This document shows positions 17,955-35,297 of a stretch of DNA of 43,220 nucleotides, one piece after another. The translations under genes were made by a program, and so were the position numbers. Source of the DNA: Bacteroidales bacterium (GTDB taxonomy: Bacteria > Bacteroidota > Bacteroidia > Bacteroidales > UBA932). Location: contig JAFTBU010000031.1 in NCBI GenBank assembly GCA_017455065.1, forward strand, positions 1 to 43,220. The letters run 5' to 3'. Within the stretch, counting starts at the first letter, position 1; the number at the start of each line of letters is the position of its first letter. The notes below the pieces were generated by a model. The model was not told where the DNA came from, searched no databases, and was given only the letters and a program-made list of their open reading frames with translations.

Positions 17955-20219
17955 ATGAAAAAGAGCATCCTCCTCCTGATAGCCGCCGCCCTTGCCCTGC
18001 CTGCCGAGGGGCAGGTGAAACACATAGCAGCCGTAGAACCCGTGAAAGTGGACACCCCGGTCGGAACGGTGCCGCGCCTGCCTTCGCAGCTGCTGGTCCG
18101 CTACGCCGACGGGAGCAGCGGATGGCGCCAGGTGGTGTGGAATGATGCTTCCCGGGAGGTCGAAGCCTTCCTCTCAGACAGCGTCCTGCATCCAGCAGGC
18201 TGCCGCTACGAAGTGGCCGGCGCCATAATCGGCGAGGGTCCCGGGGGCTTCCCTGTCAAAGCGTCGGTGCGGGTGACCCGCGCCTCATGGCGCCATCCGG
18301 CCCCGGAGCCGGTAGCTTCGCCGCTGCCGCTCGCCGATGTCCGCCTCACAGGGGACAACCGCCTCACTTCAAACCGCGATATGGATATACGCAATCTCCT
18401 GAGTATCAATGTCAAGGAGATGCTGTACAACTATCGTGACACCTACGGCCTGAGCACCGAGGGCTATCCCCGCTCGAGGGGCTGGGATTCCCCGACCACC
18501 AAGCTCAAGGGACACGGCAGCGGCCACTACATGTCCGCCATGGCCATGGCCTATGCCTGCTGCGAGGACCCCGCCCTGAAAGACAGCCTCAAGACCAACA
18601 TACGCATCATGGTGGACCAGCTGAGAGAGTGCCAGGAGCTGACCTTCGTGATGGACGAGGGTCTGGGCCGCTACCGCGAAGCGCGGGATCTCGCCCCGGA
18701 AGAGGAACTGCGCCATCTCAAAGGGGACTGGGCTTCGTTTGACGAATACAAGAAAGACTGCTGCAGCTACGGCTACGGCTATCTGAACGCCATCCCCGCC
18801 CAGCACCCCGTACTGGTCGAGATGTACCGGCCCTACCACAACGAACAGTGGGTCTGGGCCCCTTACTACAGCATCCACAAGCAGCTCGCCGGCCTGATCG
18901 ACATCGCCCTGAACGTGGACGACGAGGCGATTGCCTCGAAAGCCCAGCTGATCGCCAGGGACATGGGCCTGTGGGTATGGAACAGGCTCCATTACCGCAC
19001 TTTCGTGGATGTGCAGGGCAGCCGGGAAGAGCGCCGCAGCCGCCCCGGCAACCGCTACGAGATGTGGAACATGTACATCGCCGGTGAACTCGGAGGTATG
19101 GCGGAGTCCCTCTCGCGCCTGAGTGAGATGTCCTCCGATCCCGGGGACAGGGCCAGGCTGCTGGAAGCGGCGTCTTATTTCGACGCTCCCGCATTTTTCG
19201 GACCCCTGTCGCGCAATATAGACGACATCCGCGGCCGCCATGCCAACCAGCATATCCCCATGATCACCGGGGCCCTGCGCTCCTACCGCCTGAATGCCGA
19301 TCCGATGTACTATGACATCGCCCTCAATTTCTGGCAGCTCGTCCAGGGACGCTATGTCTATGCCACCGGAGGGGTGGGCAACGGAGAGATGTTCCGGGAG
19401 CCCTACACCCAGATGCGCAACATGCTCCCCGACCCCTGCCTGAATGAGACCTGCTGCGCCTACAACCTCGCCAAGCTCACCAAGGACCTCAATTGCTACG
19501 ACCCCGACGACGCTGCCTACATGGACTACTACGAAAGGGTGCTGTACAATCAGATCGTGGGCTCCTTGCATCCGGAGCATTTCGCCGTGACTTACCAGTA
19601 TGCGGTGGGACTGAACGCCCGCAAGCCTTTCGGCAACCGCAGCCCGAGCTCCACCTGCTGCGGCGGCACCGGCGCCGAGAACCATGTCAAATATCAGGAG
19701 GCGGCCTACTTCGTCTCCGACGACTGCCTCTGGGTGGGGCTGTACCTGCCCACGGAGGCCTTCTGGAGGGCCAAGGGTGTGACTCTCACCCAGGAGTGCG
19801 CCTGGCCTTCGGAGCATTCCGTGATCAAGGTCTCCGGCGGCCGTTTCGCCATGAAACTGAGGGTGCCTTACTGGGCCACGGAAGGCTTCGACATAAGGCT
19901 CAACGGCCGCAGCATAGCCCGCAGCTACCGTCCCTGCTCATATGTGGAGATACCTGCGAGGAACTGGTCGGAGAGTGACGTGGTGGAGGTGGTGATGCCC
20001 TACACCGACCATATCTGCTATGGTCCGGACAAGATAGACGGATACTCAGAGTGGCTGGGCGCCTTGATGCACGGGCCCCTCGTGATGGCCACCCCCGACG
20101 CGCCCACATGGGAGGAGGCCGTGTACAAAAAAGGAAGCGAAGGCATGACCTTCGCTCCCGATTATACTCAGACCGGTAATTCTACCAGATATCTCAGATT
20201 GCCCGACGGGAATCTTTGA
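17955..20219 (+). CDS. GH127 family glycosidase, beta-L-arabinofuranosidase-like, secreted
   Basis: The 754-residue product has a classical signal peptide (MKKSILLLIAAALALPAEG). A short Ig-like region (VGTVPRLPSQLLVRYADGS) follows, then the GH127 catalytic module. GH127 enzymes of the HypBA1 type use a zinc site of one Glu and three Cys, one of which is the nucleophile. The matching residues here are in LNETCCAYNLAKL (Glu498, Cys500) and SSTCCGGTG (Cys568 as likely nucleophile, Cys569). Substrates would be beta-L-arabinofuranosides of plant cell wall glycans. The last 26 bp overlap, tail to tail, with malQ. A related family with similar fold (GH146) is possible. Confidence 0.9.
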   Translation: MKKSILLLIAAALALPAEGQVKHIAAVEPVKVDTPVGTVPRLPSQLLVRYADGSSGWRQVVWNDASREVEAFLSDSVLHPAGCRYEVAGAIIGEGPGGFPVKASVRVTRASWRHPAPEPVASPLPLADVRLTGDNRLTSNRDMDIRNLLSINVKEMLYNYRDTYGLSTEGYPRSRGWDSPTTKLKGHGSGHYMSAMAMAYACCEDPALKDSLKTNIRIMVDQLRECQELTFVMDEGLGRYREARDLAPEEELRHLKGDWASFDEYKKDCCSYGYGYLNAIPAQHPVLVEMYRPYHNEQWVWAPYYSIHKQLAGLIDIALNVDDEAIASKAQLIARDMGLWVWNRLHYRTFVDVQGSREERRSRPGNRYEMWNMYIAGELGGMAESLSRLSEMSSDPGDRARLLEAASYFDAPAFFGPLSRNIDDIRGRHANQHIPMITGALRSYRLNADPMYYDIALNFWQLVQGRYVYATGGVGNGEMFREPYTQMRNMLPDPCLNETCCAYNLAKLTKDLNCYDPDDAAYMDYYERVLYNQIVGSLHPEHFAVTYQYAVGLNARKPFGNRSPSSTCCGGTGAENHVKYQEAAYFVSDDCLWVGLYLPTEAFWRAKGVTLTQECAWPSEHSVIKVSGGRFAMKLRVPYWATEGFDIRLNGRSIARSYRPCSYVEIPARNWSESDVVEVVMPYTDHICYGPDKIDGYSEWLGALMHGPLVMATPDAPTWEEAVYKKGSEGMTFAPDYTQTGNSTRYLRLPDGNL

Positions 20220-22056
20220 TCAGGCCTTCGACCTCTGCATTGAGGTCGAAAGCAGTCTTCAGACTCTCCAGGTCGAAGTGCACGCGATAGCGCCAGTGAT
20301 GGTGGCTGTCGGCGGGCTCGTTGATGCGCTCTGCGTCCCTGTCGGAGCGGCGCAGCCCCTTGTCGAGGGCTACCCAGTCCTGCAGGGGGAAGATGGCCAG
20401 CATCGAAGGTGAATCCAGGAACTCCCAGAGCATGTTCCTGATCTCCCAGGGCTCCGGATCATGGTCGCACTGCATCCTCAGGGTGGGCATGTCGTGGCTC
20501 GAAGTGGCGCAGACGCTCAGTTCCTTCCATTCGCCCTCATTCTCCATCCCCCTCATCTTGAGCGAGAGTATGCGTTCGTGGTCCATCACGCCGGGCACGC
20601 AATGGGGCACCATGCCGAGGTCCTCACCGCAGGCGAGCATGCCGGTGGCTCCCAGCAGCTCGGGCAGTTTCTTCTCGGCGTTGCGCCTCCAGAATTCGTC
20701 GTGGCGGTGGTAGAAGAAATCATTGTACAAGGCTCCGAACCGCTCCTGCTGGTCCTGGGGCAATCCTGCCGAGGCGGGGGCGATGAGGGGCTGGTACATG
20801 CCGGGATGGCGGGGATCCGGATGGAAAAGCCCGTCGATGGGCAGGTGCATGGCGAAGATTTCCTTCTCGGAGTAGGGCAATGCGGGATTGAAATGTCCCA
20901 TCAGGCCGCCGCTGTACTCCGTAGGGATCTCCCAGATGCGGAAGAAGCCGAGTATGTGGTCGATGCGGAATGCGTCGAAATAGCGGCTCATCTTGCGCAG
21001 ACGCGCCTTCCACCAGGCGTAGTCGTCCTTTGCCATCTCTTCCCAGTTGTAGGTCGGGAAACCCCAGTTCTGGCCGTCTGTGCTGAAATAGTCAGGGGGT
21101 GCTCCGGTCGAGGAATCCAGGTTGAACAGCTCGGGATGCCAATAGGCCTCGGCGCTGTCGGCGCTCACTCCGATGGGGAGGTCGCCCTTGAGCGACACGC
21201 CCTTGGAGCGGGCGTAGTCCACTTCGGCGCAGAACTGCTTGTCCAGGTGGTACTGCATCCAGCAGTAGTATGCGGGCTCCAGGCGGTCGCGCTTGGCGCA
21301 GAACTCCGCGTATTCTTCCAGCCAGTAGGAATTTTCCTTGACGAAACGTTTGTAAGCGGCGGAAGCCATGTCCTTTTCACCTCTGGCCTCGAAAGCCTTG
21401 CGTATGTAGGCCATCTTGGCTTTGAAGACCCTGGGATAATCCAGTTCGGGCAGGGCGTTCAGCTCGGCCTGCAGCTTGCGGAACACGGCGTCTTCCTTGA
21501 TGCCCAGATCCTGCAGATGCATGTACAGGGGATGCAGGGCGAAGGTGGAGACGGGGCTGTAGGGGTAGGAATCCTGCCAACCTCCCTTGCGGGTGGTGTC
21601 ATTGACCGGCAGGAGCTGGAGTATGCATTGTCCCGTGGAGGCGGCCCAGTCCACCAGGGGCCTGAGGTCGTGGAACTCGCCTATGCCGAAGTCCTTCGCG
21701 GTGCGAAGCGAGAATACCGGCACGGCAGTGCCCGCTCCGCGGAAACCGGGACGGTCGAAATACTCCGCCTGGTGCTTGCGGGTGAAGGGGCAGCCCGGGA
21801 TGGGGCAGTCCAGCCACTGGTCCTGGATGAGTTTTGCGGACTTGGAGCTGTGGTGGGTCCATTCGTTGCGGATGATCAGGCCGTCGTACATCACCACATA
21901 GCTGTAGTCCTTGAGCGCCGCTGCGCTGCAGTCGCTGACGGTGACCGACCAGATGCCTCCCTCACTCCATTCCATGGGGTACTTCTTGTCGGCGAGGACC
22001 AGGGCGAGGCTCTCCCCCCACCTGGTCACGTACTCTATCTTGAAAGTCACTTGCAT
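20194..22056 (-). CDS. malQ: 4-alpha-glucanotransferase (GH77), compact form
   Basis: MalQ transfers maltosyl or longer glucan units between malto-oligosaccharides and releases glucose, in the cytoplasm; no signal peptide is present. The first about 95 residues look like one CBM20-type starch-binding domain (FKIEYVTRWGESLALV). The catalytic domain starts near residue 108 (AVPVFSLRTAKDFGIGEF). Catalytic residues are nucleophile Asp366 (AFRIDHILGF), acid/base Glu478 (ACGEDLGM) and Asp522 (SSHDMP). At 620 residues it is shorter than the roughly 900-residue MalQ with two CBM20 domains that I recall from Bacteroides. Its start overlaps the stop of the GH13-GH97 gene by 10 bp, making it the last gene of the operon. 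Confidence 0.94.
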   Translation of the reverse strand: MQVTFKIEYVTRWGESLALVLADKKYPMEWSEGGIWSVTVSDCSAAALKDYSYVVMYDGLIIRNEWTHHSSKSAKLIQDQWLDCPIPGCPFTRKHQAEYFDRPGFRGAGTAVPVFSLRTAKDFGIGEFHDLRPLVDWAASTGQCILQLLPVNDTTRKGGWQDSYPYSPVSTFALHPLYMHLQDLGIKEDAVFRKLQAELNALPELDYPRVFKAKMAYIRKAFEARGEKDMASAAYKRFVKENSYWLEEYAEFCAKRDRLEPAYYCWMQYHLDKQFCAEVDYARSKGVSLKGDLPIGVSADSAEAYWHPELFNLDSSTGAPPDYFSTDGQNWGFPTYNWEEMAKDDYAWWKARLRKMSRYFDAFRIDHILGFFRIWEIPTEYSGGLMGHFNPALPYSEKEIFAMHLPIDGLFHPDPRHPGMYQPLIAPASAGLPQDQQERFGALYNDFFYHRHDEFWRRNAEKKLPELLGATGMLACGEDLGMVPHCVPGVMDHERILSLKMRGMENEGEWKELSVCATSSHDMPTLRMQCDHDPEPWEIRNMLWEFLDSPSMLAIFPLQDWVALDKGLRRSDRDAERINEPADSHHHWRYRVHFDLESLKTAFDLNAEVEGLIKDSRRAI

Positions 22057-25000
22057 GGTTCAAAACTGATTGCGAAGCCGCCACCCGGCTTCATGGTTAC
22101 ACGTATGCTGTCCGAGGCGACGACGGTCCGGGTGGAGATGTCGTAAGCCTGAGGATTGTCTTTGTAATGCGCCGAAGGGGCGTCTGCGTAGATCTTTGCG
22201 GTGAAGCTGCCCTCGCCGAGGAAATCCAGGGGGATGTCGAAGGAACGCTCCTGGGTGTCGGTGACGCCGCCGCAGAACCACTGTCCGGCTTTGGAGCGGC
22301 GGGCGGCGACTATGTATTCCATCGGTTCGGCGAAGAGGTAACGGCTCTCGTCCCAATCCACCGCCACATCCTCGATGAAGCGGAAGGCATCCAGGAAGCG
22401 GCTGTAGTGCTCGGGGGTGTCGGCCGCCATCTGGAGAGGGGAGTACATGGTCACGTACAGTCCCAGCTGGCCGCAGATGGTGGTATTGACATAAGAATCA
22501 TTGCCGCACCAGTCCTTGAGGTTCTGCTCGAAGATACCCGGGGTGTAGTCCATGGGCCCGCCGTTGAGCCTGGTGAAGGGCAATATGGCGGTGTGCCCGG
22601 GGGTGATGCCGCCGAATGCCTGGTACTCGGTGCCCATTGCGGATTCGTTGCCGATGAGGTTGGGCCAGGTGCGGCAGAGTCCGGTAGGACGCACCGCCTC
22701 GTGGGCGTTGACCATGATATGGTGGGCGGCCGCCTGCTCGAGGGCATACTGGTAGTGGTTGACCATCCACTGGCTGTAGTGGTGCTGTCCCTGTGGCAGG
22801 ATGTCACCCACATAGCCCGACTTGACGGCGTCGTAGCCATACTTGTTCATCAGGGTGTAGGCGGCTTCCATATGGCGCTCATAGTTGCGTACGCTGGAAG
22901 AAGTCTCATGGTGCATCACAAGTCTGATGCCCTTTGAATGGGCGTAGGCGTTGAGGGCCGCGATGTCGAAATCGGGGTAGGGGGTCAGGAAATCGAAGAC
23001 ATAGTCTTTGTTGCAGTTGGCCCATTCCTCCCAGCCTATGTTCCATCCCTCGACCAGAACGGCGTCGAAGCCGTGTGCGGAGGCGAAATCTATGTAGCGG
23101 CGTACCTTCTCGTTGTTGGCGCTGTGGCGGCCGTTGGGCTTGGCAGAGGCATAGTCGAAGCTGTCCAGGCGTATGCCTTCGGCGTCGGTGTAGGCCCAGG
23201 AGCCCGCTCCCGCTATCATCTCCCACCACACGCCCATGTATTTGACCGGATGTATCCAGCTCACATCTTCCAGGGCGCAGGGCTCGTTGAGGTTGAGCAC
23301 CAGGCGGGAAGCGAGCTGCCCGGTGGCGCTGCGGGCCAGCTGGACCGTCCTCCAGGGGGTCTTGCCGGGAGTCTGCATATTGCCTTTCCAGCCCTGGGCG
23401 TCAGGGGTGAGGAAGGCCCTCAGGCTGTGCGCCCGCCCGTCCACGAGCAGGTGCATGCAGGGATAGTCCACCAGGGCGGCCTCGTGGATGTTGACATAGA
23501 TCCCGCCCGGGGTCTTCATCTGCAGGGAAGTCTGCACTCCCCAGGTGTCGAACGGGGTCTGGCTGGAGTTGCCGCGCATCTTGTCGCGGAAATGGGGGCC
23601 TATCTCAGAGAGGCGGGTGCAGTTGTATTCGTATTCCTGGGTGTCGAAGTCGCCGGGTATCCACCATGCGGTGCAGTCATCCGCCATGGCGAATTCGGTG
23701 AGTTCCTCCTTGATGACGAAATGCACCATGGACTGGCCGGAGGGGAATTCGTAGCGGAATCCCAGGCCGTCGTCGAACAGGCGGAAACGTATGTCCATCC
23801 GGCGGCCGCTTTCCTTCTGGCAAAGCTGCACCAGGAGTTCGTTGTAGTGGTTGCGTATGCTGGATTCCTCGCCCCACACGGGCTCCCAGGTCTCGTCGAA
23901 GCTGTCAGTGCGGGTGCCGGTGAGCACGAAGCCGCGGTCCAGTGCGACACTGCCCGTCCCGTCTTCCTTGGCAATGCTGCCGTCTCCCTCGTAATGCAGG
24001 TCCTGCGCTTTGATGACGCCCCTGAGCTCGAATCCCAGGCGGCTGGGGAGCACTACGCTCTGCCCGTCGATGGAAAGGCTGTAATAAGGGGTGCCGGCCT
24101 CGGAGAGGGTGAAATCCATCTTTATCGTCCCGTCGGGGGAAGACAGCGAAGTCTCGGGGGTGGGGAAAAGACTCCATCCCCAGGGGCCGAGCTCCAGCGT
24201 ACCGTTTTCGAACGGTACCGAGACGGCGGCCGGGGTGAGATTGGCATAGACCGTCACCTTGTCCTTGCCCTTGGCGCGGGAAAATGCCAGCACTCCCTCC
24301 GGGACATCCTCGATGAACACAGCGGGGGCGCCTTCCTCCCCGGCTGCGAGGCAGGGATGGGCGTGCCTGAAGGCGATGAGGTCGCGGATGAATGAGGTAT
24401 ATCCGTTGGCCGACCAGTCGGTGATGGGATCCTTCTCGAAGAATTGCAGACGGCGCTGCAAGCCTATCTCCTGGCCGGTATAGACCAGGGGCTGGCCCTT
24501 GGGCAGGGTGAAGCAGAGGACTTCCATGACCTTGGCTGCGTCGCCCATCCTCTCGAATTCACTTCCGGCCCAGGAATTTTCGTCGTGGTTGGAGGTGAAC
24601 ATCAGGCGGAAGTTGGAAGGACCCATCCAGGCGTCGTCCTCGGCGAGGTATTCGCGTATGTCCTTCACGCTCTTGGTGCCCTGGGCCACGTCGTTGAGCA
24701 TGTGGTGCAGCTTCCAGGCGTACGAGGCGTCGAAAGTCTCGGAAGCGTCGGTGAGGGCGTCGTTCTCGGCTTCGGCCAGCAGGTAGATGTCGGGATAGTC
24801 TTCATTCAGCTTGGGCAGTATACCTTTCCAGAATGCTGCCGGCACTTCGGCTGCGGCGTCGCAGCGGAAGCCGTCCACGCCCTTCTCCAGCCAGAAACGC
24901 ATGCAGGAGTCCTGTGCGGCCCAGACGGTTTCATTGTCATAGTTGAGGCTGCGGGTGTCGTTCCAGTCGTATTCGTAGATGGCGTTGCCCAGAGAATCCC

Positions 25001-25433
25001 TTTCGTAGTAGTCGGCGGGACGGGTCTCCATCCACACATGGTCCGGGGCGGTCTGGTTGGCCACCCAGTCGAGTATGACCTTGAAGCCCTGGGCGTGCGC
25101 CGCACTGAGCAGCTCGTCGAAATCCTGCATGGTCCCGAATTCGGGATTGACGGCGGTGTAGTCGGAGATGGCGTAGTACGAACCCATGCTGCCCTTGCGC
25201 TCCACCTCGCCTATCTTGTACATGGGCATGAGCCAGAGCACGTCCACTCCGAGGTCCTTGAGTCGGGGAAGCTGCGCTTCCACCCCCTTGAAATTGCCCT
25301 CGGGGGAGAACTGGCGTATGTTGACTTCATAGACCACGGAGTTGTAGGTCCATTCGGGATGCAGCGGGGCCGCTTTCGGACTGCAGGCCGCAAGGCAGGC
25401 CGCTGCTGCAAGTATGGAGATCAGTCTTTTCAT
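22047..25433 (-). CDS. GH13-GH97 fusion lipoprotein (alpha-amylase plus SusB-like alpha-glucosidase)
   Basis: One uninterrupted 1128-residue frame holds two enzymes. ATG 25433 is used (signal MKRLISILAAAACLAAC, Cys17); an in-frame TTG five codons upstream overlaps the previous gene. Residues about 27-425 are GH13: YEVNIRQFSPEG, WLMPMY, nucleophile Asp192 (DGFRCDAAAE), Glu221 (YLLAEAEND), Asp284 (TSNHDENSW). From about residue 430 (SPDGTIKMDFTLSEAG) it is GH97. The three catalytic glutamates of SusB (E439, E508, E532) match Glu843 (HHETSSS), Glu912 (NAHEAVRPTG) and Glu936 (MGTEY), with identical spacings of 69 and 24. The GH97 half is therefore of the inverting alpha-glucosidase type. Residues after the lipid Cys (SPKAAP) lack acidic charge, suggesting periplasmic location. 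It replaces the separate susB of the classical sus operon. Confidence 0.93.
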   Translation of the reverse strand: MKRLISILAAAACLAACSPKAAPLHPEWTYNSVVYEVNIRQFSPEGNFKGVEAQLPRLKDLGVDVLWLMPMYKIGEVERKGSMGSYYAISDYTAVNPEFGTMQDFDELLSAAHAQGFKVILDWVANQTAPDHVWMETRPADYYERDSLGNAIYEYDWNDTRSLNYDNETVWAAQDSCMRFWLEKGVDGFRCDAAAEVPAAFWKGILPKLNEDYPDIYLLAEAENDALTDASETFDASYAWKLHHMLNDVAQGTKSVKDIREYLAEDDAWMGPSNFRLMFTSNHDENSWAGSEFERMGDAAKVMEVLCFTLPKGQPLVYTGQEIGLQRRLQFFEKDPITDWSANGYTSFIRDLIAFRHAHPCLAAGEEGAPAVFIEDVPEGVLAFSRAKGKDKVTVYANLTPAAVSVPFENGTLELGPWGWSLFPTPETSLSSPDGTIKMDFTLSEAGTPYYSLSIDGQSVVLPSRLGFELRGVIKAQDLHYEGDGSIAKEDGTGSVALDRGFVLTGTRTDSFDETWEPVWGEESSIRNHYNELLVQLCQKESGRRMDIRFRLFDDGLGFRYEFPSGQSMVHFVIKEELTEFAMADDCTAWWIPGDFDTQEYEYNCTRLSEIGPHFRDKMRGNSSQTPFDTWGVQTSLQMKTPGGIYVNIHEAALVDYPCMHLLVDGRAHSLRAFLTPDAQGWKGNMQTPGKTPWRTVQLARSATGQLASRLVLNLNEPCALEDVSWIHPVKYMGVWWEMIAGAGSWAYTDAEGIRLDSFDYASAKPNGRHSANNEKVRRYIDFASAHGFDAVLVEGWNIGWEEWANCNKDYVFDFLTPYPDFDIAALNAYAHSKGIRLVMHHETSSSVRNYERHMEAAYTLMNKYGYDAVKSGYVGDILPQGQHHYSQWMVNHYQYALEQAAAHHIMVNAHEAVRPTGLCRTWPNLIGNESAMGTEYQAFGGITPGHTAILPFTRLNGGPMDYTPGIFEQNLKDWCGNDSYVNTTICGQLGLYVTMYSPLQMAADTPEHYSRFLDAFRFIEDVAVDWDESRYLFAEPMEYIVAARRSKAGQWFCGGVTDTQERSFDIPLDFLGEGSFTAKIYADAPSAHYKDNPQAYDISTRTVVASDSIRVTMKPGGGFAISFEPCK

Positions 25434-25437
25434 ATCT

Positions 25438-27405
25438 TTATCTTTCAAATTCGACGATGAGCGCGCTCCTGGGGGCTACGCTTACACCGTTGCGGAGCGT
25501 GAAACTCTCTCCGCTGAGGACGTTCCGTCCGGTGACGGGGCCGGAGACGAACTCCCGGTAATGGTCCCAGTCGAGCTCGCGCGGCTCCTTGGTGTTGTTT
25601 ATATAGACAAATACGGCCTGGTCGTCCGTGTAGCGGAAGAAAGCGTAGGTATTGTCAGTGATGTTGCGGGAACCGGTGTTGGCGCGGGAGAGGAAATGGA
25701 GGGTCTTGCCCTGCTGCACGGCCTTGCAGCCCTTGCGCCACTGGAAGAGGGTGCGGGTGTAGTCGTACAGTTCCTCGGCATCCTTGTAGATGCCTTCAGC
25801 CTTGCTGCGGCCTTCCTCGCTGAAAAGGTCCACGGCGTCGCCCTCCCAGCCTCCCGGGAAATCGATGCGCTTGGCCCCGTCATGGCTCTGGCAGTCCTTC
25901 CTCTCCAGGAACATCATCTCGTCGCCGTAGTACAGCTGGGGTATGCCGCGTATGGTCGCCAGCATGGTGATGGCGAGCTTCATCTTGTCCGGATCCTGAC
26001 GCAGCACGTCTCCGGTGCGGGCGTGGTCGTGGTTGGCGAAGAAAGTCATCATGTGGCTGAGGTCCTGGTAGGCGAAATCCTGGGCTATCACGGTATACAC
26101 GCGGGTCATGCCTTCATCCCAGTTGACTTCATCCTCGCAGAGGGCTGTCTTGATGGCGCTCTCCAGGGGGAAATCCATGATGGAGGGCAGGTTGGAGTTG
26201 AATCCGTCTTTGTTGGGATTGTCCTTCTGCCAGTAAGCGAGCTGGCTTATCTTCCCGTCCCAGCATTCGCCTACGATGTTCATCCCCGGGTACTCGTCGG
26301 TGACAGCCTTGCACCAGAGGGACATGGGGCCGGGTTCGTTGTAAGGATAGGTATCCACCCTGAGGCCGTCCAGACCGGCATATTCTATCCACCAGATGGC
26401 CCACTGCTGGAAATATTTCAGCAGATAGGGATTGTCGAGATTCATGTCGGGCATGGAAGGGACGAACCAGCCGCTCTCCTGCCTCTCGCGGTCGCGCACT
26501 GAAGCGTTGGGGTCCATATAGACTGAGAACAGGGCGTTCATCTGCATATAGGGCTCGCTCACGTGGTACCAGTCCTTGAAAGGGGGCTCTTCCATCCACC
26601 AGTGGGCGGTGCCGCAGTGGTTGGTGACTATGTCCATGATCACTTTGAGGCCCTTGGCATGCGCCTCATCCACGAAAGTCCGGTAGAGGGCGTTGTCGCC
26701 GAAACGGGGGTCGATGTGGTAGTAGTCGGCGCAGGCGTAGCCGTGATAGGACTCGTAGTCCTGGTTGTCCAGCAGCAGGGGAGTGCTCCAGATGGCGGTG
26801 GCGCCCAGTCCGGCTATGTAGTCCAGATGGTCGATGATGCCCTGGAGGTCGCCTCCGTGGCGGCTGACGGGATCCTGGCGGTCCACCGCGTCGGGAGTGG
26901 CGGGTACGCTCCATGCGCGCTGGGAGCCGTCGTCATACTCTCCGCCGGGCCAATGGCTGTCGTTTTCTGCAGTGGCCGAGGCGAAGCGGTCCGGCATGAT
27001 GAGATAGACCATGTCGGCGGTCGTGAAGCTCTGCCTGTCGCGGCTGCCGGCTGCCCTTTCATGTATGGTGTAGGGGTATTTGAAGCTTTCTTCCCCCTTG
27101 GTGAACACCAGCTTGTATTCCCCGGCCGCCCGGACGTCCATGTCCAGGAACAGGAAATCGGGGCTGTCCGCCTTGTGCACGGCTTTGACACTGAGGCCTC
27201 TGCCTTCGACATCCACGGCATAGGAACTGATGTCCGGACCCTGGACCATAAGCTGCAGGGAAGTGGTCATCCCTGACCACCAGCACAGAGGCTCGACCCT
27301 GCTGACCTGGCTCTCGAGGGCCTGGGGTACGGAAGAATAGTCATTGGTCTGCCCGCAGGAAATCAGGAGTGCGGCGAGGCCGGAAAGTATGAGCAGTCTT
27401 TTCAT
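25438..27405 (-). CDS. susA: SusA-like GH13 neopullulanase/cyclomaltodextrinase lipoprotein
   Basis: The 655-residue enzyme should cut imported malto-oligosaccharides. It has a lipoprotein signal (MKRLLILSGLAALLISC, Cys17), then an N-terminal beta domain of the cyclomaltodextrinase type (residues about 35-117, WWSGMTTSLQLMVQGPDIS). The GH13 barrel carries MPDRFA, nucleophile Asp351 (DGLRVDTYPY), acid/base Glu380 (NIVGECWDG) and Asp460 (FFANHDHAR). A C-terminal beta domain ends SALIVEFER. SusA of B. thetaiotaomicron is periplasmic; here the lipobox suggests membrane anchoring. It lies 3 bp after the GH53 gene and 4 bp before the GH13-GH97 fusion. Confidence 0.93.
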   Translation of the reverse strand: MKRLLILSGLAALLISCGQTNDYSSVPQALESQVSRVEPLCWWSGMTTSLQLMVQGPDISSYAVDVEGRGLSVKAVHKADSPDFLFLDMDVRAAGEYKLVFTKGEESFKYPYTIHERAAGSRDRQSFTTADMVYLIMPDRFASATAENDSHWPGGEYDDGSQRAWSVPATPDAVDRQDPVSRHGGDLQGIIDHLDYIAGLGATAIWSTPLLLDNQDYESYHGYACADYYHIDPRFGDNALYRTFVDEAHAKGLKVIMDIVTNHCGTAHWWMEEPPFKDWYHVSEPYMQMNALFSVYMDPNASVRDRERQESGWFVPSMPDMNLDNPYLLKYFQQWAIWWIEYAGLDGLRVDTYPYNEPGPMSLWCKAVTDEYPGMNIVGECWDGKISQLAYWQKDNPNKDGFNSNLPSIMDFPLESAIKTALCEDEVNWDEGMTRVYTVIAQDFAYQDLSHMMTFFANHDHARTGDVLRQDPDKMKLAITMLATIRGIPQLYYGDEMMFLERKDCQSHDGAKRIDFPGGWEGDAVDLFSEEGRSKAEGIYKDAEELYDYTRTLFQWRKGCKAVQQGKTLHFLSRANTGSRNITDNTYAFFRYTDDQAVFVYINNTKEPRELDWDHYREFVSGPVTGRNVLSGESFTLRNGVSVAPRSALIVEFER

Positions 27406-27408
27406 ATC

Positions 27409-28536
27409 TCAATCTTTGAATGCGTCCATGATAGCCGAAGCCTTGCCTTCGGAGGTGAAGGCACCCTGGTCGTAGGCGTTCCAGGTTTCGCGCTTGCCGG
27501 TGTAACGGTAGATCAGGTCCGGATTGCTGTATATGGCGGGTTTCCAACCGCCGTAAACCTCAGGTTCCCAATAGAATACGCCCTCGCAGCCGTCTATGGC
27601 GCGAAGGCCGTCGATGAAATCTTTGAGGACGGAGGCTGCGTCGCTGAGGGCGGGTTTGACCCCGACTTCGGAGACTATCACGGGGATCCCGAAGGTGGAA
27701 TGTATCTTCTTGATATTGTCCAGGGCCTGCCTGTTCTTCTGGGCGGCCTGCCCTTCCCCGGCCTGGGGATAGTGTGACAGGGCGATGGCGTCGAACCTGG
27801 CTCCCTGGGCCTTGATTTCATTGAACCACCACATGTTGTCTTCGAAGGCGTTGTCCAGATGGGGCATCACCAGGGCATCGGGGAACACGGCCTTGGCGGC
27901 ATCGTAGCCGGCGTTGTACAGCTGGGCGAAATGCTTGCGGCCGTCGGTGATATTGCCGTGGCTGTCCCAGAGCTGGCCGGCGGGCCAGAGCATGCCGTTG
28001 CGGGTCTCGTTGCCCACCTGAATCCAGCGGGGGCTCACCCCGGCAGCTTTAAGGGCTTCGAGTACGTCCTTGGTGTGTGCTGAGACATGGGAGCACATCT
28101 TGTCCATGTCGGCATTGTCCTGCTCCCACGCTGCGGGTATCTTCTGCCTCGAAGGGTCGGCGAAGAAATCGCTGTAGTGGAAGTCCGCCATCACGGCCAT
28201 CCCGGCGGCAGCAGCCCTCTTGGCGAGGGCGACCATGTCGGCTTTGCCGCTCCATCCTCCGTAGGGATCCACCCATACCCTGAGGCGTATGGAGTTGATG
28301 CCGCACCCGGAGAGCACTGCGAATATGTCGGCGGCGGAGCCGTCGGCCTTGCGGAAGACTTTTCCGTCCTTCTCCATTTCGGAGACCCAGCTGACATCGG
28401 CTCCCTTGGCGAAAGTGATTTCTGCTGCGGGATCGGTCCAGGGCCCGTTGTCGGGCTCTTTGCCGCGTTCTTCACCGCAGGAGAGGGTGAGCAGGAGCGA
28501 GGCTGCCGCCATGGCCCTGAAAATCGACAGTCTCAT
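27409..28536 (-). CDS. GH53 endo-beta-1,4-galactanase-like lipoprotein
   Basis: GH53 enzymes hydrolyse beta-1,4-galactan, as in pectic arabinogalactan I. The 375-residue product has a signal ending LLLTLSC (Cys20) followed by acidic residues (GEERGKE), a pattern linked to surface display in Bacteroidetes. Family motifs are KGADVSWVSEMEKDG, NSIRLRVWVDP, ADFHYSDFFADP, WIQVGNETRNGMLWP (acid/base Glu177) and VIVSEVG (nucleophile Glu290). It is embedded between two alpha-glucan enzymes with 3-bp gaps on both sides, so it is a genuine operon member. Its substrate logic in this operon is unexplained. Confidence 0.93.
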   Translation of the reverse strand: MRLSIFRAMAAASLLLTLSCGEERGKEPDNGPWTDPAAEITFAKGADVSWVSEMEKDGKVFRKADGSAADIFAVLSGCGINSIRLRVWVDPYGGWSGKADMVALAKRAAAAGMAVMADFHYSDFFADPSRQKIPAAWEQDNADMDKMCSHVSAHTKDVLEALKAAGVSPRWIQVGNETRNGMLWPAGQLWDSHGNITDGRKHFAQLYNAGYDAAKAVFPDALVMPHLDNAFEDNMWWFNEIKAQGARFDAIALSHYPQAGEGQAAQKNRQALDNIKKIHSTFGIPVIVSEVGVKPALSDAASVLKDFIDGLRAIDGCEGVFYWEPEVYGGWKPAIYSNPDLIYRYTGKRETWNAYDQGAFTSEGKASAIMDAFKD

Positions 28537-28539
28537 AAG

Positions 28540-30552
28540 CTACAGGGCGAATATTGCGGAAGAATTGCCTTCCAATATGAGTTTGTAGGAGTTGCCGCTG
28601 TCGCTCTTGGTGACGGAGACCATGCCGAGGTAGCCCACCATGTTGGTGAGGTCGTCGGAGAAGGGGGCGACCACCTGGGTGCCGGCGAGATTGTGCACCA
28701 CCAGGGCCTTCTGCCCGTCGGAGGTGGTCATGTACCACACTGCCAGTGATTTGTAGGAATCGGAACCGGTCTCGTTGTAGTTGGAATGCTTGGACATCTT
28801 GCCATAGGCGAGGGCCGGCACGGCGTTGCGCAGTTTGGTGAAATACTCGTACACCTTGAGTATGCTGTTGGCCTGGGACTCCTGGGTCTCCACGGAGATG
28901 CTGCCGTTGAGCATGCCGGCGTCGACCTTGCCGCCCAGCTTGGCTGAGGCCAGGCCCGATGCGGAGGAATTCCATACCATGGGGGCGCGGACATATTCGT
29001 CGCCGCCCGATTTCGATCCGTAGTAGCCGAGTTCCTCACCCTGGTAGATATAGGGATTGCCGCCTGCTGTGAGCAGGATCGCGGCAGCCTGCTTCATCCT
29101 GGGAAGGTTGCGGCCGAGGGTATGGGCTGTCCTGTCCTCGTCGTGGTTGGAAAGCTTGGTGCACTCGATGAAGTCGCTGCGGTATTTCCTGTATATATCC
29201 TGGTAGCTGAGCAGGTCCTTGACGAAATAGCAGCCGGTCTCCTGCTGGAGGCACCATTGGAGACGGAACCAGAAATCGAACTCGAAGAGGGCGGGGAGAC
29301 CCTTGTAGTAGGGGGCCATCTGGTCGGCATTGTCCATCCAGGCCTCTCCCACCATGTAGAAGTCGCCGCTGCCGCCCTTGGCTTTGTAAGTGGCGTTGCA
29401 GTGGTCGTACCATTTCTTGAGGAAGGTGGAATTGGCATCGGGGGCGCCTTTTTCGTAGATGAAGCGCACGGCGTCGAGCCTGAGTCCGTCAATGCCTATG
29501 TTTATCCATTTGTCGGCAGCCGCCGCCAGGTCCTTGAAGGCGGGGGACTGCTCCGCTGATGCGGCCTCTCCGTAGGCGATGTCGGGCATCCAGGAGCCGA
29601 AGGCGCCGTAGTAGTAAACCGAACTGCCGCCGAAGGTGATGTCCGCCGCGGTGGAGCTGTTGAGGGTGAAGGGGGTGCCGAAGCTGATCTTGGACCCGCT
29701 GCCGCCCCATTTGGTGCCGCTGGCCCAGGAGGTGGAGGAAGTCCTGACGAGGAAGCCCCAGTCGGAATCGAAATCTACAGTGATCTCATAGATGTTGGGA
29801 GAAGTCTGGTAGAGCCTGTAGAGTTTGTCGTTGCCGAAATATATATAGCGCTGGACGGAGCCGTCGGAATTGGAACTCTCCGGCGCCGCAGTCGTGGTGG
29901 TGACGGTGATCTTGGGGGAGGCGGAATTGGTCCAGTCGAGCCTGAAATGCAGGCGTCCCTTGTAGCCGAGGTTCCCGGTGCTTACGCTGTGCCAATTGTT
30001 GGCGTTGTAGCTGCCCAGGGAAGGGAATTTGCCCGCGTTGATGTCAGCGGAGGGATTGGTGGAAATCAGGTAATAGTTGCGGTAGGGGCTGTCCGCCGAT
30101 GCGATGGCGCTCTTGAACCAGCTGTGGCCCTTGCCGGTGTGGTTCAGGACGAAATCCAGATAGATCTTGATGTCTTTGGCGTGGGCCTTCTCCACAAGGT
30201 TCTTGAAATCAGCCTCTGTGCCGTATTCGGGATTCACGCTGGCATAGTCGGTGACGTCGTAGCCGTGGTAGGAGTCGGCCGGATGGATGGGGGAGAGCCA
30301 CAGGGCGGATACGCCCAGATTGTCCAGATAGTCGAGCTTCGAGGTGATGCCGTTGAAGTCGCCTATGCCGTCCCCGTTGCTGTCGGCGAAACTGTACACC
30401 AGCAGCTGATAGGTGATGCCGGCCCTTTTCTGGCCGTCCCAGTCGGGGAATTCGTAGCTGATCTTCTTTTCTTCCTGCTGTTCCCTGCGGTCGCATGAGG
30501 TCCAGGACATCAGGGCCGCGAACACCAGCGTCAATGTCAGTATCCTTTTCAT
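28540..30552 (-). CDS. susG: SusG-like surface alpha-amylase (GH13 with CBM58-like insert)
   Basis: SusG makes the first endo-cut in surface-bound starch. This 670-residue lipoprotein (signal MKRILTLTLVFAALMSWTSC, then DRREQQEE, acidic) has the same architecture as B. thetaiotaomicron SusG. A GH13 barrel is interrupted at about residues 195-315 by a Ser/Thr-rich beta domain in the position of CBM58 (LHFRLDWTNSASPKITV to ITFGGSSVYYYGAF). Catalytic residues are Asp360 (DGLRLDAVRFIYE), Glu403 (YMVGEAWMD) and Asp471 (LSNHDEDR). The C-terminal beta domain ends LILEGNSSAIFAL. It is separated from the SusE/F-like gene by 63 bp containing a strong hairpin. Confidence 0.94.
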   Translation of the reverse strand: MKRILTLTLVFAALMSWTSCDRREQQEEKKISYEFPDWDGQKRAGITYQLLVYSFADSNGDGIGDFNGITSKLDYLDNLGVSALWLSPIHPADSYHGYDVTDYASVNPEYGTEADFKNLVEKAHAKDIKIYLDFVLNHTGKGHSWFKSAIASADSPYRNYYLISTNPSADINAGKFPSLGSYNANNWHSVSTGNLGYKGRLHFRLDWTNSASPKITVTTTTAAPESSNSDGSVQRYIYFGNDKLYRLYQTSPNIYEITVDFDSDWGFLVRTSSTSWASGTKWGGSGSKISFGTPFTLNSSTAADITFGGSSVYYYGAFGSWMPDIAYGEAASAEQSPAFKDLAAAADKWINIGIDGLRLDAVRFIYEKGAPDANSTFLKKWYDHCNATYKAKGGSGDFYMVGEAWMDNADQMAPYYKGLPALFEFDFWFRLQWCLQQETGCYFVKDLLSYQDIYRKYRSDFIECTKLSNHDEDRTAHTLGRNLPRMKQAAAILLTAGGNPYIYQGEELGYYGSKSGGDEYVRAPMVWNSSASGLASAKLGGKVDAGMLNGSISVETQESQANSILKVYEYFTKLRNAVPALAYGKMSKHSNYNETGSDSYKSLAVWYMTTSDGQKALVVHNLAGTQVVAPFSDDLTNMVGYLGMVSVTKSDSGNSYKLILEGNSSAIFAL

Positions 30553-30615: not shown

Positions 30616-33600
30616 CTACTCTATGGTAGCTGTGCCTGCGTTGAAGTCGAGAGTGTATTTCTTCCCGGCTTCTGCCTTTACCTCGGCGAGTTCGCCGCCG
30701 TCGGCGCGATAGACTATCTTGCCTTCGATGACATTGAACTCACGGGTCCACCAGTCGGTGGTGCCTGTCGAAGTCTCGGCATACATGCGGAGCTTGCCGG
30801 CTGCGGGGACGGTCACGGAAAGCTTGCCTTCGCTCTCGGCGAACTTGGCGCTTTCGTTCTTCTTGTCCCATCCGCCCCAGCATTCGCCTATGCCGTAGAC
30901 ATTGGCTTTCTCCACACCGATCTTGCCGTTTGCAGCGTCCACATAGATCATGTAGACTCCGCTCTCGGCGACGACGCAGTTGCCGTCCTTAGTGGTGAAA
31001 CCGCTGTCATTGCCGCCCAGGCTGTTGAACTCGCTTCCGTTCCAATCCTTGACGGAGTTGAACTTGAAGCCGGTGTCGGCTGCGAGATTCCTGATGGCCC
31101 AAAACTGTCCGGGAGCGCCGTTGACGGGGATCATCTCGGATGCGTTCGTGTTCCAGTCCCAGCCGCCTCCGACCACACCGTCGCCGATGATGTACATGGC
31201 GGTGGGCAGGACGGGAGCGTCTCCCTCACCCTGGATGGCGCCGGTACCGGCATTGAAATCGAGGACGATTTCCTGGTTGGCCAGCACTGAAGGGGCAGCG
31301 AGCTCGTCCATCACACGGTAGACGATCTTGCCGTCGATGATGTTGAACTCACGGGTCCACCAGCCGGAAGTGGCGATGGAGGACTCTACGAACATGCGCA
31401 GGTGGCCTGCGGAAGCAGCCTTGAGCTTGAGGGTCTTGCCGTCAGCCTTGAAGAGGTTGTCGTCGACAGGGTCCCAGGTGCCCCAGCACTCGCCGAGTCC
31501 GTAAACCCTTGCGGGCTCCACATGCAGTTTCTCGTTCTTGAGGTCGATGTGCACCAGGTAGAATCCGTCGGCGTCCACGACGCAGTTGCCGCCGGACTGG
31601 GTGAATCCGTCATTGGTTGCGAGGCCGTTGAATTCCTTGCCGTCCCAATCCCTGTTGGAATTGAACTTGAAGCCCTTGCCGGCGCTGAAGTACTTGATGG
31701 TGTAGAACTGGCCTTCGGCCTCTGCGCCCCATTCGGGATTGTGCAGGACGGGGGAGAGCTCGACTACGCCGTCGGAACCCCATGCCCAGCCGCCGAATTC
31801 ATCGCCTATCATGTAGAGATGCTCGGGGAATGCCACGGTGGTGATGGTGATTTCCTTGGTGGCGGGGTCGAAGATGACCTTGTATTCACCTGCCTCGGCG
31901 AGCTTGATGTCGCTGCCGGGCTGGGTTGCCGTGAACGGAGTACCGATGGTAGGTACGAAGGATCCGCTCTCGGCGCCGTAGGTGTGGTCGTCGGCCCAGG
32001 AGTAGTCGTAACGGATCTTGAAGCCGCCGGTGATGTTGAGCACGGGGCTGCTCCAGATGCCGTTGCTCTCGGACATGACGAAGTCCTTGTTCCAGGAGCT
32101 TCCAGCGATCTCACCTATGAGACTGTACACGGCCTTGTGCTCCTCGATGAGGATGGTCTGGGCTGCATAGTCGAGGGTGATGTCGTAGAATCCGTCCGCT
32201 CCGACCTGGATGTTCTTGTCACCGGAGGCGAATGCCTTGCCGAGGGTGGGCTTGTACACGTCGTAGGGGTTGGAAGGATCGATGGTGCTCTTGGAGTTGG
32301 CCTCAGGTCCGCCCCAGGAGGTTCCCCAGTCGTGGTCGGCCCTGATCTTGAACTCGTCGGTGGCGTTGATGGCAACGCTCCTTACCACCCAGATGTCACC
32401 TTCGATGTTGTCGAGGTCGGTGTCGGTGTCCCAAGAGGTGCCGCCGATGGTGCCGATCAGAGACCATGCGCCGGGCTTCTCTTCCTGAGGCTCGTCGCCA
32501 CCGCCGATCAGGCCGCTCTTGCCGCCGAGGGATTCGACGACCTTGAAGAGCTTGCCATCGGGATTGACGAGCAGGTCATATGTGCCGTCGGCAGGCACGG
32601 CGAGGTTCTTGCCGCCTGCGGATGCGGGATACTCCTTGTCGAGGGTCACGATGAAAGGCTCAGTATTGCCTTCGGCGCCGAGGTTGGTGCCCCAATCCTG
32701 GTCCTTGCGGAACTTGAACTGGTCGCCTGTGGTGAGGGCTACACCCTCGGCCACATGCCAGGTGCCGTCGGTGATCATGGCGATATCCTTGTCCCAGTTC
32801 ATCTCGAAGCTGCCGATGGCGCCGATGACGCTCCATGCAGACTCGCTGTCATATCCGGGATAAGTCTGGAAGGCTTCGGTGATGTAGAAGACCTTGGCTT
32901 CGGGATCGAGTACCAGGTCGTATGCTCCGTCAGCGGGTACGGCGAGGTTCTTGCCGCCTGCAGATGCGGGATACTCCTTGTCCAGTTCCATCACGAAAGG
33001 CTCTGTGCTGCCCTCTGCTCCGAAGTTGGTGCCCCAATCCTTGTCCTTGCGGAACTTGAACTGGTCTGAAGCGGAGAGTTTGACGTTGCGTGCGACGTGC
33101 TTGGTGCCGTCGGTGAACATCACGATATCGCTGTCCCAGTTCATGCCGACGCTGGCGATGGAGCCGATAACGCTCCATGCGGACTCATCGGTGAAAGCCG
33201 CCCAGGGGTTGCCCTTGAGCATCTCGAATCCGTTGACATTGATCTTGTCAGCTGCCTCCACATAGTCGGTTGCGGGAGGAAGCATGGCGCGGAGTGCGAG
33301 TACCACGTCCACGATCGAGCCCTTTTCGATACCGAGGGCCTCGAGGGCCTTGGTAAGAGTCATGTTGGACACGGTCACAGTATGGTTCTCAGTATTGACC
33401 GAGCAGTCCAGGTCTGCGTTTGCAGTCTGCCCGGCTGCGGATACGATACTCAGATAGTATTTTACAAGTTTGTTGTTGATGCCGAAATCAGCGGGGTTGT
33501 AAGTGACGCTGATTCCGTCCTTGACAGCGGTGGAAGTTCCGGCTGTGGGAGCCTTGGCCTGTGAAGGATCATATATGACCCATTCACGCTCCGTGACGCA

Positions 33601-33657
33601 GGAGAAGGTGCCGAGGAGCATGAGGCCGGCTGCGATGATTTGTATAAATTTCTTCAT
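30616..33657 (-). CDS. Giant SusE/SusF-like outer membrane starch-binding lipoprotein with about eight modules
   Basis: The 1013-residue lipoprotein starts MKKFIQIIAAGLMLLGTFSC (Cys20). Residues 22-135 form a SusE-type Ig-like stalk (VTYNPADFGINNKLVKYYL). I then see modules at about 159-261, 273-375, 396-506, 509-607, 613-715, 718-810, 820-917 and 920-1013. The first four share AWSVIGSI, DQFKFRKD-DWGT and AVPADG-YDL elements. The last four form two pairs: YMIGDEFGGWAWGSDG type followed by GECWGTWD/WWTREFN type. SusE has two and SusF three starch-binding modules, so this is a marked expansion. It replaces both susE and susF in the operon, 8 bp after susD. Binding by each module is inferred from the family. 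Confidence 0.88.
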   Translation of the reverse strand: MKKFIQIIAAGLMLLGTFSCVTEREWVIYDPSQAKAPTAGTSTAVKDGISVTYNPADFGINNKLVKYYLSIVSAAGQTANADLDCSVNTENHTVTVSNMTLTKALEALGIEKGSIVDVVLALRAMLPPATDYVEAADKINVNGFEMLKGNPWAAFTDESAWSVIGSIASVGMNWDSDIVMFTDGTKHVARNVKLSASDQFKFRKDKDWGTNFGAEGSTEPFVMELDKEYPASAGGKNLAVPADGAYDLVLDPEAKVFYITEAFQTYPGYDSESAWSVIGAIGSFEMNWDKDIAMITDGTWHVAEGVALTTGDQFKFRKDQDWGTNLGAEGNTEPFIVTLDKEYPASAGGKNLAVPADGTYDLLVNPDGKLFKVVESLGGKSGLIGGGDEPQEEKPGAWSLIGTIGGTSWDTDTDLDNIEGDIWVVRSVAINATDEFKIRADHDWGTSWGGPEANSKSTIDPSNPYDVYKPTLGKAFASGDKNIQVGADGFYDITLDYAAQTILIEEHKAVYSLIGEIAGSSWNKDFVMSESNGIWSSPVLNITGGFKIRYDYSWADDHTYGAESGSFVPTIGTPFTATQPGSDIKLAEAGEYKVIFDPATKEITITTVAFPEHLYMIGDEFGGWAWGSDGVVELSPVLHNPEWGAEAEGQFYTIKYFSAGKGFKFNSNRDWDGKEFNGLATNDGFTQSGGNCVVDADGFYLVHIDLKNEKLHVEPARVYGLGECWGTWDPVDDNLFKADGKTLKLKAASAGHLRMFVESSIATSGWWTREFNIIDGKIVYRVMDELAAPSVLANQEIVLDFNAGTGAIQGEGDAPVLPTAMYIIGDGVVGGGWDWNTNASEMIPVNGAPGQFWAIRNLAADTGFKFNSVKDWNGSEFNSLGGNDSGFTTKDGNCVVAESGVYMIYVDAANGKIGVEKANVYGIGECWGGWDKKNESAKFAESEGKLSVTVPAAGKLRMYAETSTGTTDWWTREFNVIEGKIVYRADGGELAEVKAEAGKKYTLDFNAGTATIE
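30619..31821 (-). repeat. Duplicated pair of SusE/F modules (5-6 and 7-8)
   Basis: Modules 5-6 (31228-31821) and 7-8 (30619-31200) repeat as a two-module unit. Shared elements are GFKFNS-DW-G-EFN, GNCVV, VYG-GECWG-WD, WWTREFN-I-GKIVYR and LDFNAGT. Divergence is greater than between modules 1 and 2. Confidence 0.7.
32533..33183 (-). repeat. Tandem duplication encoding SusE/F modules 1 and 2
   Basis: Two copies (32875-33183 and 32533-32841) repeat with a 342-bp period. By eye the proteins are about 70% identical, and the segment LDKEYPASAGGKNLAVPADG is unchanged. The DNA is also nearly identical over this stretch, indicating recent duplication or gene conversion. Confidence 0.8.
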
Positions 33658-33665
33658 GTTGCAGT

Positions 33666-35297
33666 CTATTTATATCCTTCGTTCTGAGTGATATTGTCGG
33701 GGTTTGCCGCGATGTCGGTCTCGAGGATGGGATAGACATACCTGTGAGGGTCGGAGTCGAAGATGCCGAGACGGATTTCGTCCTGACGGCGCTGACCTTC
33801 CCAGAGGTATTCGGCAGCCTTGTCCTTGAGAATGAACGCGACAGACAGGGATGCGGGAGTGGAAAGTCCTGCACGGTCCCTGAGGGCCTTAATGTAACCG
33901 ACTGCGGTGGCGTCGCTGGTGCTGCCGCCATGCAGACGTGCGTCAGACTCTGCGTAAATATAATACATTTCGGGGAGACGGAAAATGGCAAGGTCGGCGC
34001 TGGAAAGTTTCCAGTCTTCGGTCTCTTCGCCGCCTCTGTGGAAGATGGTGCCGTCTGAGTAGAGATATGCCCACTTCCAGCATCTCCAGCCTGTGCTGGA
34101 CAAGTTGGAGGCGTAGTCCTTGGCGGCAGCGCCGGCATTGTACAGGAAGAGCCTCTTGTCGCTCTTGGCAGGGTCGTACCCCAGGCCTGTTCCGTCCCAG
34201 TTGACACCGCCGAGTTCGAAGTTCTCCTCAACGTATGAGATGGGGATATGGTATCCGTTCCATTTATCAGCAGACACGTAGTTTACTTCGGTGATGCCCA
34301 GATAGGCAGCGACAGCTTCGTTCATGGGGTCGTCGAAGGCGGCGCAGGAAAGAGTGGTGGTGCCACCCCAGCTCTGGGCCTTGGCGGCGTCATACTCCAC
34401 TGCGAAGATGAACTCGTCGCCGGAGCAGGTCTTGCCGTTGTCCTGCATGAAGAGCTCCTGGTACTTCGGATGGAGGGAATAGCCGTTGTCGATGACCTTC
34501 TTGGCGTAGGTCTTGGCATCCTCCCAACGGGCGGTGCCGGTATAGACCTCGGCGTTGAGATACATCCTGGCGAGCAGGGCCCTTGCGGCGTCCTTGGTGG
34601 GACGGGGATAAGCGACCTTGCCCTTTGCAGGCATGTCGGAAGAATCCTCGGAGAGTTCCTTCAGCTCGGTCTCGAGCCACTCGAAGAGCTCGGTCCTGGT
34701 GAACTGCGTGGGCAGCTCGCCGCCGATGTTGGCTTCCATGGCCTTCGGAGGTCTTCCGAAGAGGTCGAGGAGGATGTAGTAGTACATGCACCTGTGGAAC
34801 CTGGCTTCAGCCCTGTACTGATGTATTTCAGACTTGAAAGCATCGTGTCCTCTCAGGGAGACCTTCTCGTCGGTGGTCTGGAGGAGATACTCGTTGCAGA
34901 GCACGATACCGTTCATGCAGCGGGTATAGACTGCGGTCACTGCCGTGTTGTCGGCATTGGTCCAGGAGTGGTCATTAATCGAAATGATATAGGAGTCAGG
35001 CCAGCCGATATCAAGGCTTCCCGTGCAGAGGTCGTTCATGTTGAACCACTGGCGGAGGAGTTCGCTCTGGCCGGAATCTGAGAAGTGCAGGTCGTTGTCA
35101 CCGGCGCTGTTCTGGCTGACGAAACTGTAGTTTGCGTTGAGATATGCAAGTCCCTTGAGGTAACTGCTCTGATCGTTGTAAGCGGTCTCGGAAGTGCTGT
35201 CGTAAGGGTTGAGGGGGAATGCATCCAAATCCTTCAGGCAGGACACGAGTGACATGCACGCAATGGCTGAAAGAGCTATTGTAATAATCTTTTTCAT
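33666..35297 (-). CDS. susD: SusD family starch-binding lipoprotein
   Basis: SusD is the surface lid of the SusCD importer and binds the glycan. At 543 residues it is close to B. thetaiotaomicron SusD (551). The signal is MKKIITIALSAIACMSLVSC (Cys20) followed by LKDLD. TPR-like helices and the family segment QYRAEARFHRCMYYYILLDL are present, as are ARALLARMYLNAEVYTG and the C-terminal IFRLPEMYYIYAE and LWEGQRRQDEIRLG. It lies 12 bp downstream of susC and 8 bp upstream of the SusE/F-like gene. Confidence 0.96.
   Translation of the reverse strand: MKKIITIALSAIACMSLVSCLKDLDAFPLNPYDSTSETAYNDQSSYLKGLAYLNANYSFVSQNSAGDNDLHFSDSGQSELLRQWFNMNDLCTGSLDIGWPDSYIISINDHSWTNADNTAVTAVYTRCMNGIVLCNEYLLQTTDEKVSLRGHDAFKSEIHQYRAEARFHRCMYYYILLDLFGRPPKAMEANIGGELPTQFTRTELFEWLETELKELSEDSSDMPAKGKVAYPRPTKDAARALLARMYLNAEVYTGTARWEDAKTYAKKVIDNGYSLHPKYQELFMQDNGKTCSGDEFIFAVEYDAAKAQSWGGTTTLSCAAFDDPMNEAVAAYLGITEVNYVSADKWNGYHIPISYVEENFELGGVNWDGTGLGYDPAKSDKRLFLYNAGAAAKDYASNLSSTGWRCWKWAYLYSDGTIFHRGGEETEDWKLSSADLAIFRLPEMYYIYAESDARLHGGSTSDATAVGYIKALRDRAGLSTPASLSVAFILKDKAAEYLWEGQRRQDEIRLGIFDSDPHRYVYPILETDIAANPDNITQNEGYK

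Follow-up and report, generated by a model that had tools for sequence, protein, structure and literature searches.

A single gene in the window analysed here, a 43,220-nucleotide stretch of Bacteroidales DNA (GenBank assembly GCA_017455065.1, contig JAFTBU010000031.1, positions 1 to 43,220), joins a glycoside hydrolase family 13 (GH13) domain to a complete SusB-type GH97 enzyme within a starch-utilisation (sus) operon. The gene occupies 22047..25433 of the minus strand, with its ATG at 25433, its stop at 22049-22047 and zero internal stops, and its translation gives 1128 amino acids and the stop. A preliminary description of this DNA had proposed such a 1128-residue frame without naming the strand; the frame is present. 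The reading favoured here, with a probability of about 0.74, is that of a real fusion in a starch-utilisation operon, yielding a deletion-born, once-exported, anchored, two-enzyme protein that gains from the proximity of its parts; the deletion event, the location, the activity of both halves and the proximity benefit are what we infer in that account.

A Pfam search finds both enzymes whole in the one polypeptide, as the preliminary description had it. All five domains exceed their curated cut-offs, and the matches lie far beyond chance. From the N-terminus, and with all coordinates on the minus strand, a signal peptide recognised by eye (residues 1-17, lipobox LAAC with Cys17; 25383..25433) precedes the GH13 alpha-amylase barrel (residues 45-327; 24453..25301; PF00128, E 2e-39), which a genome-wide search located identically, and the GH13 C-terminal beta domain DUF3459 (residues 348-429; 24147..24392; PF11941), a weak match at 29.8 bits against a cut-off of 22 (E 8e-7). 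The junction or linker, residues 424-428 following Phe423 (24150..24164), was placed from the codons and the alignment to the unfused sister locus L117. The GH97 part then comprises the GH97_N beta-sandwich (residues 430-718; 23280..24146; PF14508, E 1e-69), the Glyco_hydro_97 catalytic barrel (residues 723-1023; 22365..23267; PF10566, E 5e-98) and GH97_C (residues 1026-1124; 22062..22358; PF14509, E 5e-28), to which Pfam gives the name of an oligomerisation domain. The catalytic residues earlier assigned to the two halves, Asp192, Glu221 and Asp284 and then Glu843, Glu912 and Glu936, all lie at the positions given for them.

The GH97 half fits the inverting SusB type, with its three Pfam domains, five glutamates and three motifs all present. 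The C-terminal 700 residues match SusB structures end to end (PDB 2d73, E 3e-267). In the alignment to 2d73, whose chain numbering is that of SusB, E194, E439, E508, E526 and E532 of BtGH97a correspond to E600, E843, E912, E930 and E936 of the fused protein, with Glu600 assigned by counting along the alignment; the proposed pairing of Glu843, Glu912 and Glu936 with E439, E508 and E532, and its spacings of 69 and 24 residues, are correct. These five active-site glutamates are invariant in all 143 rows of the GH97 comparison, duplicates included. The half also contains HHET (841-844), HE (911-912) and KSGY; the excerpted text of PMC2670981, which sets out the roles of the glutamates in BtGH97a, describes HHET, HE and K(T/S)GY as marks of inverting GH97 members. 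None of the 25 NCBIfam models listed for the fused protein reaches its cut-off. The retaining alpha-galactosidase type was considered and rejected: its model NF053844 tops the NCBIfam matches, yet scores 245 bits where its cut-off is 800, and the active-site motifs give it no support. The GH97 half would act as SusB does, by an inverting and Ca-dependent mechanism, and free glucose from maltodextrins at their non-reducing ends. Bacteroides SusB is described in excerpts of PMC11633381 as a periplasmic exo-acting glucoamylase, and Bacteroides lacking it failed there to grow on amylopectin, a result that the authors say differs from earlier work.

An acidic signal after the lipoprotein cysteine is the rule for surface export. 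The residues that follow LAAC here, read by eye, are SPKAA and form no acidic stretch, so that the periplasmic side is expected, and the fused protein most likely sits lipid-anchored on the periplasmic face. One lipobox signal peptide would export the whole chain, with Cys17 as the lipid anchor for both domains. Among 14 checked rows of the window clade, some of them near-copies, a simple pattern picks out 10 free GH13 proteins and 13 free GH97 proteins as lipobox-bearing, so that the fusion swaps two anchors for one.

The junction and its unfused sister

The closest unfused counterpart of the gene is found at L117, in genome G036, where GH13 and susB are separate genes one base apart, each with a lipobox. 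L117 is nearest to the window by path in both trees (support 100/96 in the GH13 tree; SH-aLRT 87 in the GH97 tree). Its GH13 gene ends in WGWKLF and a stop, followed by one base and the susB ATG, and the window reads WGWSLF-PTPET-SLSSPDG across the same place. Relative to L117, the window has in alignment a 67-base gap that spans the GH13 stop, the susB start and the susB signal peptide. Because susB of L117 lies one base off the frame of its GH13 gene, the loss of 67 bases brings both into one frame. Thus, an adjacent lipoprotein GH13 gene and lipoprotein susB gene would have merged through one short deletion, which would have removed the GH13 stop together with the susB start and signal peptide; its true length in the window's own ancestor we infer from the sister. 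Five further loci (L033, L034, L036, L038 and L040) have SusA, GH13, susB and GH77 as in the window, with GH13 and susB as separate genes.

The genome around the window is 2.1 Mb in size, 97% complete and in 64 contigs. The fused gene is its sole GH97 above the Pfam cut-off, and the GH13 model gives six matches genome-wide, four in the sus operon (SusG twice) and two short, weak ones on other contigs. With a sole GH97, and with no strong GH13 match outside the operon, there is no evident spare SusB, and the fused protein probably must do the job of SusB if the locus works at all.

Distribution of the fusion and a second origin

The fusion is rare, at two of 400 genus genomes among the matches listed and none of 80 comparison loci. 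The genus search matched 300 of the 400 genomes at E 1e-150, its matches being listed down to about E 3e-271 with at most two candidates scored per genome, and the two fusions are that of the window genome and that of locus L114 in genome G346. The 80 comparison loci, the best of a larger number, come mostly from uncultured Bacteroidales, six being named 'Candidatus Cryptobacteroides', and none of them has both halves in one frame. Upstream of their best GH97, a free GH13 gene adjoins susB in eight loci; GH13 and SusA share one frame in eight; GH13, SusA and susB are all free in 23; SusA occurs without such a GH13 in seven; none of these applies to 31; and the GH97 lies at a contig end in three. 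No third fusion was found among the matches listed for family (398 genomes), phylum (395), class (395) and order (334), overlapping sets searched at strict E limits of 1e-290, 1e-200, 1e-275 and 1e-300, so that a remote or weakly matching fusion may have escaped the search. Extra fusions suspected in nine genomes (G177, G284, G323, G155, G138, G867, G847, G819 and G717) were rejected, as the DNA shows separate frames. In three of these (G177, G284 and G323; loci L182, L183 and L184), the free GH13 gene and susB stand in the same frame with a single stop codon between them.

The L114 fusion has Pfam parts equal to those of the window's fusion and is likewise a one-frame product. The two fall in different well-supported groups of the GH13 tree (51 rows) and the GH97 tree (101 rows), and the starred tree branches force two changes: the GH13-SusB fusion has two independent origins. 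Four kin of L114 (L081, L083, L086 and L087) have the order GH13, SusA, susB, and since they keep SusA between the two genes, the L114 fusion most likely also deleted an intervening SusA gene. A complete replacement of SusA by that fusion was rejected, because G346 has SusA on another contig, at its end. The SusB proteins of the four kin lack a lipobox by the simple pattern; in L114, fusion to a lipobox-bearing GH13 would anchor SusB.

Other joins are present in relatives. At L035 (incomplete at its start), L037, L039, L043-L047 and L174, a single frame of about 890-1050 amino acids has a relative of this GH13 at the N-terminal side of SusA; on the GH13 tree the joined state changes twice, which may reflect a repeated gain or a single gain plus a single loss. 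In genome G018 (L171, 2293-6093; L196, 5792-9592), a GH123-type domain stands ahead of a SusB-type GH97 in one 1267-codon frame with a GH77 gene immediately downstream, the position that GH77 also has relative to the SusB gene in the window. GH97 is further joined in the same genus to GH20, GH65, GH92 and a GDSL-phosphatase-type domain (L173, 4098-7808; L175, 325-4161; L176, 247-4221; L179, 3078-6461; L180, 968-4351); for the last of these joins the locus scanned was L179, and L180 contains a frame of equal length with a similar GH97 match. This lineage may be prone to multi-enzyme fusions.

The GH13 half and what the join may bring

Membership of the N-terminal half in GH13 follows from the PF00128 barrel and the Asp/Glu/Asp triad, and Asp192, Glu221 and Asp284, together with Arg190 and His283, are identical in all 51 GH13 rows. 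At the end of conserved sequence region I (CSR-I), the histidine of the DxxxNH type is replaced: position 127, following Asn126, is Gln in all 16 window-clade rows and His in all 35 others (codon at 25053-25055, minus strand). The nearest solved GH13 structures by sequence, 3dhu and 4gkl, both have His at this place. This histidine is general in GH13, where it touches the sugar in subsite -1, and is usual in the family, not required for membership. With His changed to Gln, the GH13 half is not a textbook amylase. The earlier proposal of an amylase half is borne out for its catalytic triad, and the endo-amylase label is a presumption. The GH13 half is probably active and its specificity may be altered; it would trim maltodextrins imported by SusC, alongside SusA.

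Pairwise comparison with L117 (NG86) gives dN/dS of 0.110/0.914 (about 0.12) for GH13 and 0.143/0.862 for GH97, values that point to constraint on both halves. Polarised by outgroups, the changes in GH97 number 67:60 on the branch leading to the window and 43:40 on that leading to L117 (p 1.0). For GH13 they are 27:8 and 11:10 (p 0.08), relatively more amino-acid changes on the window side, which gives a weak hint of relaxed or altered constraint and is not evidence of decay.

Several observations weigh against a deletion-born fusion with two working halves. First, Gln127 stands where GH13 otherwise generally has His, and the branch counts for GH13 lean the same way. Second, dN/dS measured with L117 mostly reflects the time preceding the fusion. 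Third, by raw identity the closest GH97 row is L035 (81%), not L117, and sister support in the GH97 tree is only 87. Finally, this exact fusion has been found in one genome, where it is known from an assembled contig alone.

The likely gain from a working fusion would be a fixed 1:1 stoichiometry, one anchor, and two enzymes held close on the same short glucans. This claim of proximity and a fixed ratio is a modest one; strict channelling, earlier suggested for the fused enzyme, has no support here. The strongest alternative, possible though distinctly less probable, is that the fusion is neutral, the halves working as before and the join saving one signal peptide and nothing more. The sister genes lie one base apart, so one small deletion is enough, and the rarity of the fusion fits such an accident. 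Excerpts of PMC8417218 also report intramolecular synergy in some multicatalytic carbohydrate-active enzymes and none in others. However, two independent GH13-susB joins, one or more GH13-SusA joins and one GH123-SusB join suggest more than a single accident, and the two separate mergers of GH13 and SusB suggest that these enzymes work side by side.

A second alternative, which seems unlikely, makes the GH13 half a degenerate domain, or a regulatory or binding module on SusB, and leaves GH97 as the only enzyme. The replacement of the CSR-I histidine throughout the clade favours it, as do the small surplus of amino-acid changes along the branch leading to the window and the presence of SusA, still there for the endo step. 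Against it, Asp192, Glu221, Asp284, Arg190 and His283 are unchanged in every row, the pairwise dN/dS of the half is about 0.12, and the Gln-clade GH13 is maintained as a free gene in the clade's 15 other tree rows. It is about as doubtful, though conceivable, that in these bacteria SusB and SusA assemble physically with the accessory GH13 in the periplasm, that the separate joins are stages in the hard-wiring of this assembly, and that the Gln-clade GH13 has changed its job. Its -1 subsite would then have been rebuilt by the change from His to Gln, with an activity such as transglycosylating or debranching the short glucans passed on to SusB in place of simple endo-amylase action. The weakest alternative is an assembly or binning artefact, with two genes that stay distinct in the living cell and a contig from which about 67 bases went missing where they meet. 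It is improbable: the assembly is in 64 contigs, the fusion is known from the contig alone and the close relatives examined are all unfused, but the gap begins right after the last GH13 domain residue, ends just past the susB signal peptide and brings the genes into one frame, so that random loss is hardly likely, and L114 encodes a similar protein in one frame in an independent genome.

The fusion with two working enzymes, the preferred reading, is new in its domain architecture. GH13, GH97 and the sus operon are already known, and the novelty lies in that architecture and in the His-to-Gln clade. Among the titles and starts of abstracts listed from 5.39 million open-access papers, none describes a GH13-GH97 protein; subscription papers or the architecture lists of CAZy or InterPro may hold one. 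The parts of PMC1249566, PMC6499787 and PMC8636109 that were covered contain no GH13-GH97 protein. Two literature hits to the pattern 'GH97-GH13' were set aside, one being a gene-order string (GH97 beside GH13_14) and one a GH97-GH130, neither of them a GH13-GH97 protein.

For glycan uptake by gut Bacteroidota, the Sus system serves as the model. To our knowledge, the division of work among its periplasmic enzymes is little known, and natural fusions indicate which Sus enzymes act together. The present fusion is a ready construct for comparing proximity with an equimolar mix, with the unfused sister genes for comparison, and the Gln-clade GH13 offers a clear variation at a conserved active-site position.

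The operon and comparison with known systems

The fused gene is second to last in a tightly packed run of genes, all on the minus strand, in the order MFS, SusC, SusD, SusE/F, SusG, GH53, SusA, fusion, GH77. The run begins with a major facilitator superfamily (MFS) sugar transporter (38328..39659; PF07690, PF13347), SusC (35310..38303; TIGR04056, 769 bits) and SusD (33666..35297; PF07980, PF14322; NF033071 at 233 bits, under its cut-off of 725). These are followed by a SusE/SusF-like starch-binding protein (30616..33657; PF16411), a SusG-like GH13 with CBM58 (28540..30552; PF00128, PF20756), and a GH53-type protein in which a lipobox was recognised by eye (27409..28536; PF07745). A SusA-like GH13 of the cyclomaltodextrinase/neopullulanase type (25438..27405; PF00128, PF09087, PF10438) is kept as a separate gene immediately upstream of the fusion and stops 4 bases before it. 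The gene for a GH77 4-alpha-glucanotransferase of MalQ type (20194..22056; PF02446) and the end of the fused gene have 10 bases in common. A susC/susD pair, SusE/F, SusG, SusA and SusB thus occur in one locus, as in a sus operon. A GH53-type gene, which we take to belong to an endo-galactanase family, is also found within several sister starch operons.

Divergent from the operon, on the plus strand, lie a histidine kinase and a LytTR response regulator (39791-41676), followed by a sigma-70-type factor (42361-42852). The kinase and LytTR pair may be the regulator of the operon; in the classical sus locus, excerpts of PMC1249566 place SusR in the regulator position.

In comparison with the classical sus locus, the window operon adds GH53 and GH77 and differs in gene order, and susB, classically a gene of its own, is part of a fused frame. 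SusB of Bacteroides thetaiotaomicron (BtGH97a; 2d73, 2jka) has the same five glutamates and inverting motifs, but comes from a gene apart, which encodes a signal peptide as well, whereas the GH97 of the window trails GH13 in one chain. The alpha-amylases 3dhu (449-residue chain, E 9e-59) and 4gkl (422 residues, E 2e-42) resemble the GH13 half and have no GH97 part. L117, L033, L034, L036, L038 and L040 share the genes, their order and the kind of operon, but keep GH13 and susB apart, both equipped with a signal peptide. The GH13-SusA proteins resemble the window's fusion in setting an accessory GH13 relative N-terminal to a periplasmic Sus enzyme; their partner is SusA, not SusB, and all seven that are in the tree have the CSR-I histidine where the window has Gln. 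BeCE15A-Rex8A, a CE15-GH8 protein of Bacteroides eggerthii, is according to excerpts of PMC8417218 likewise a rare two-catalytic-domain enzyme of a polysaccharide utilization locus, with a very short linker; unlike the window's fusion, it acts on xylan and is without a GH13 or GH97 domain.

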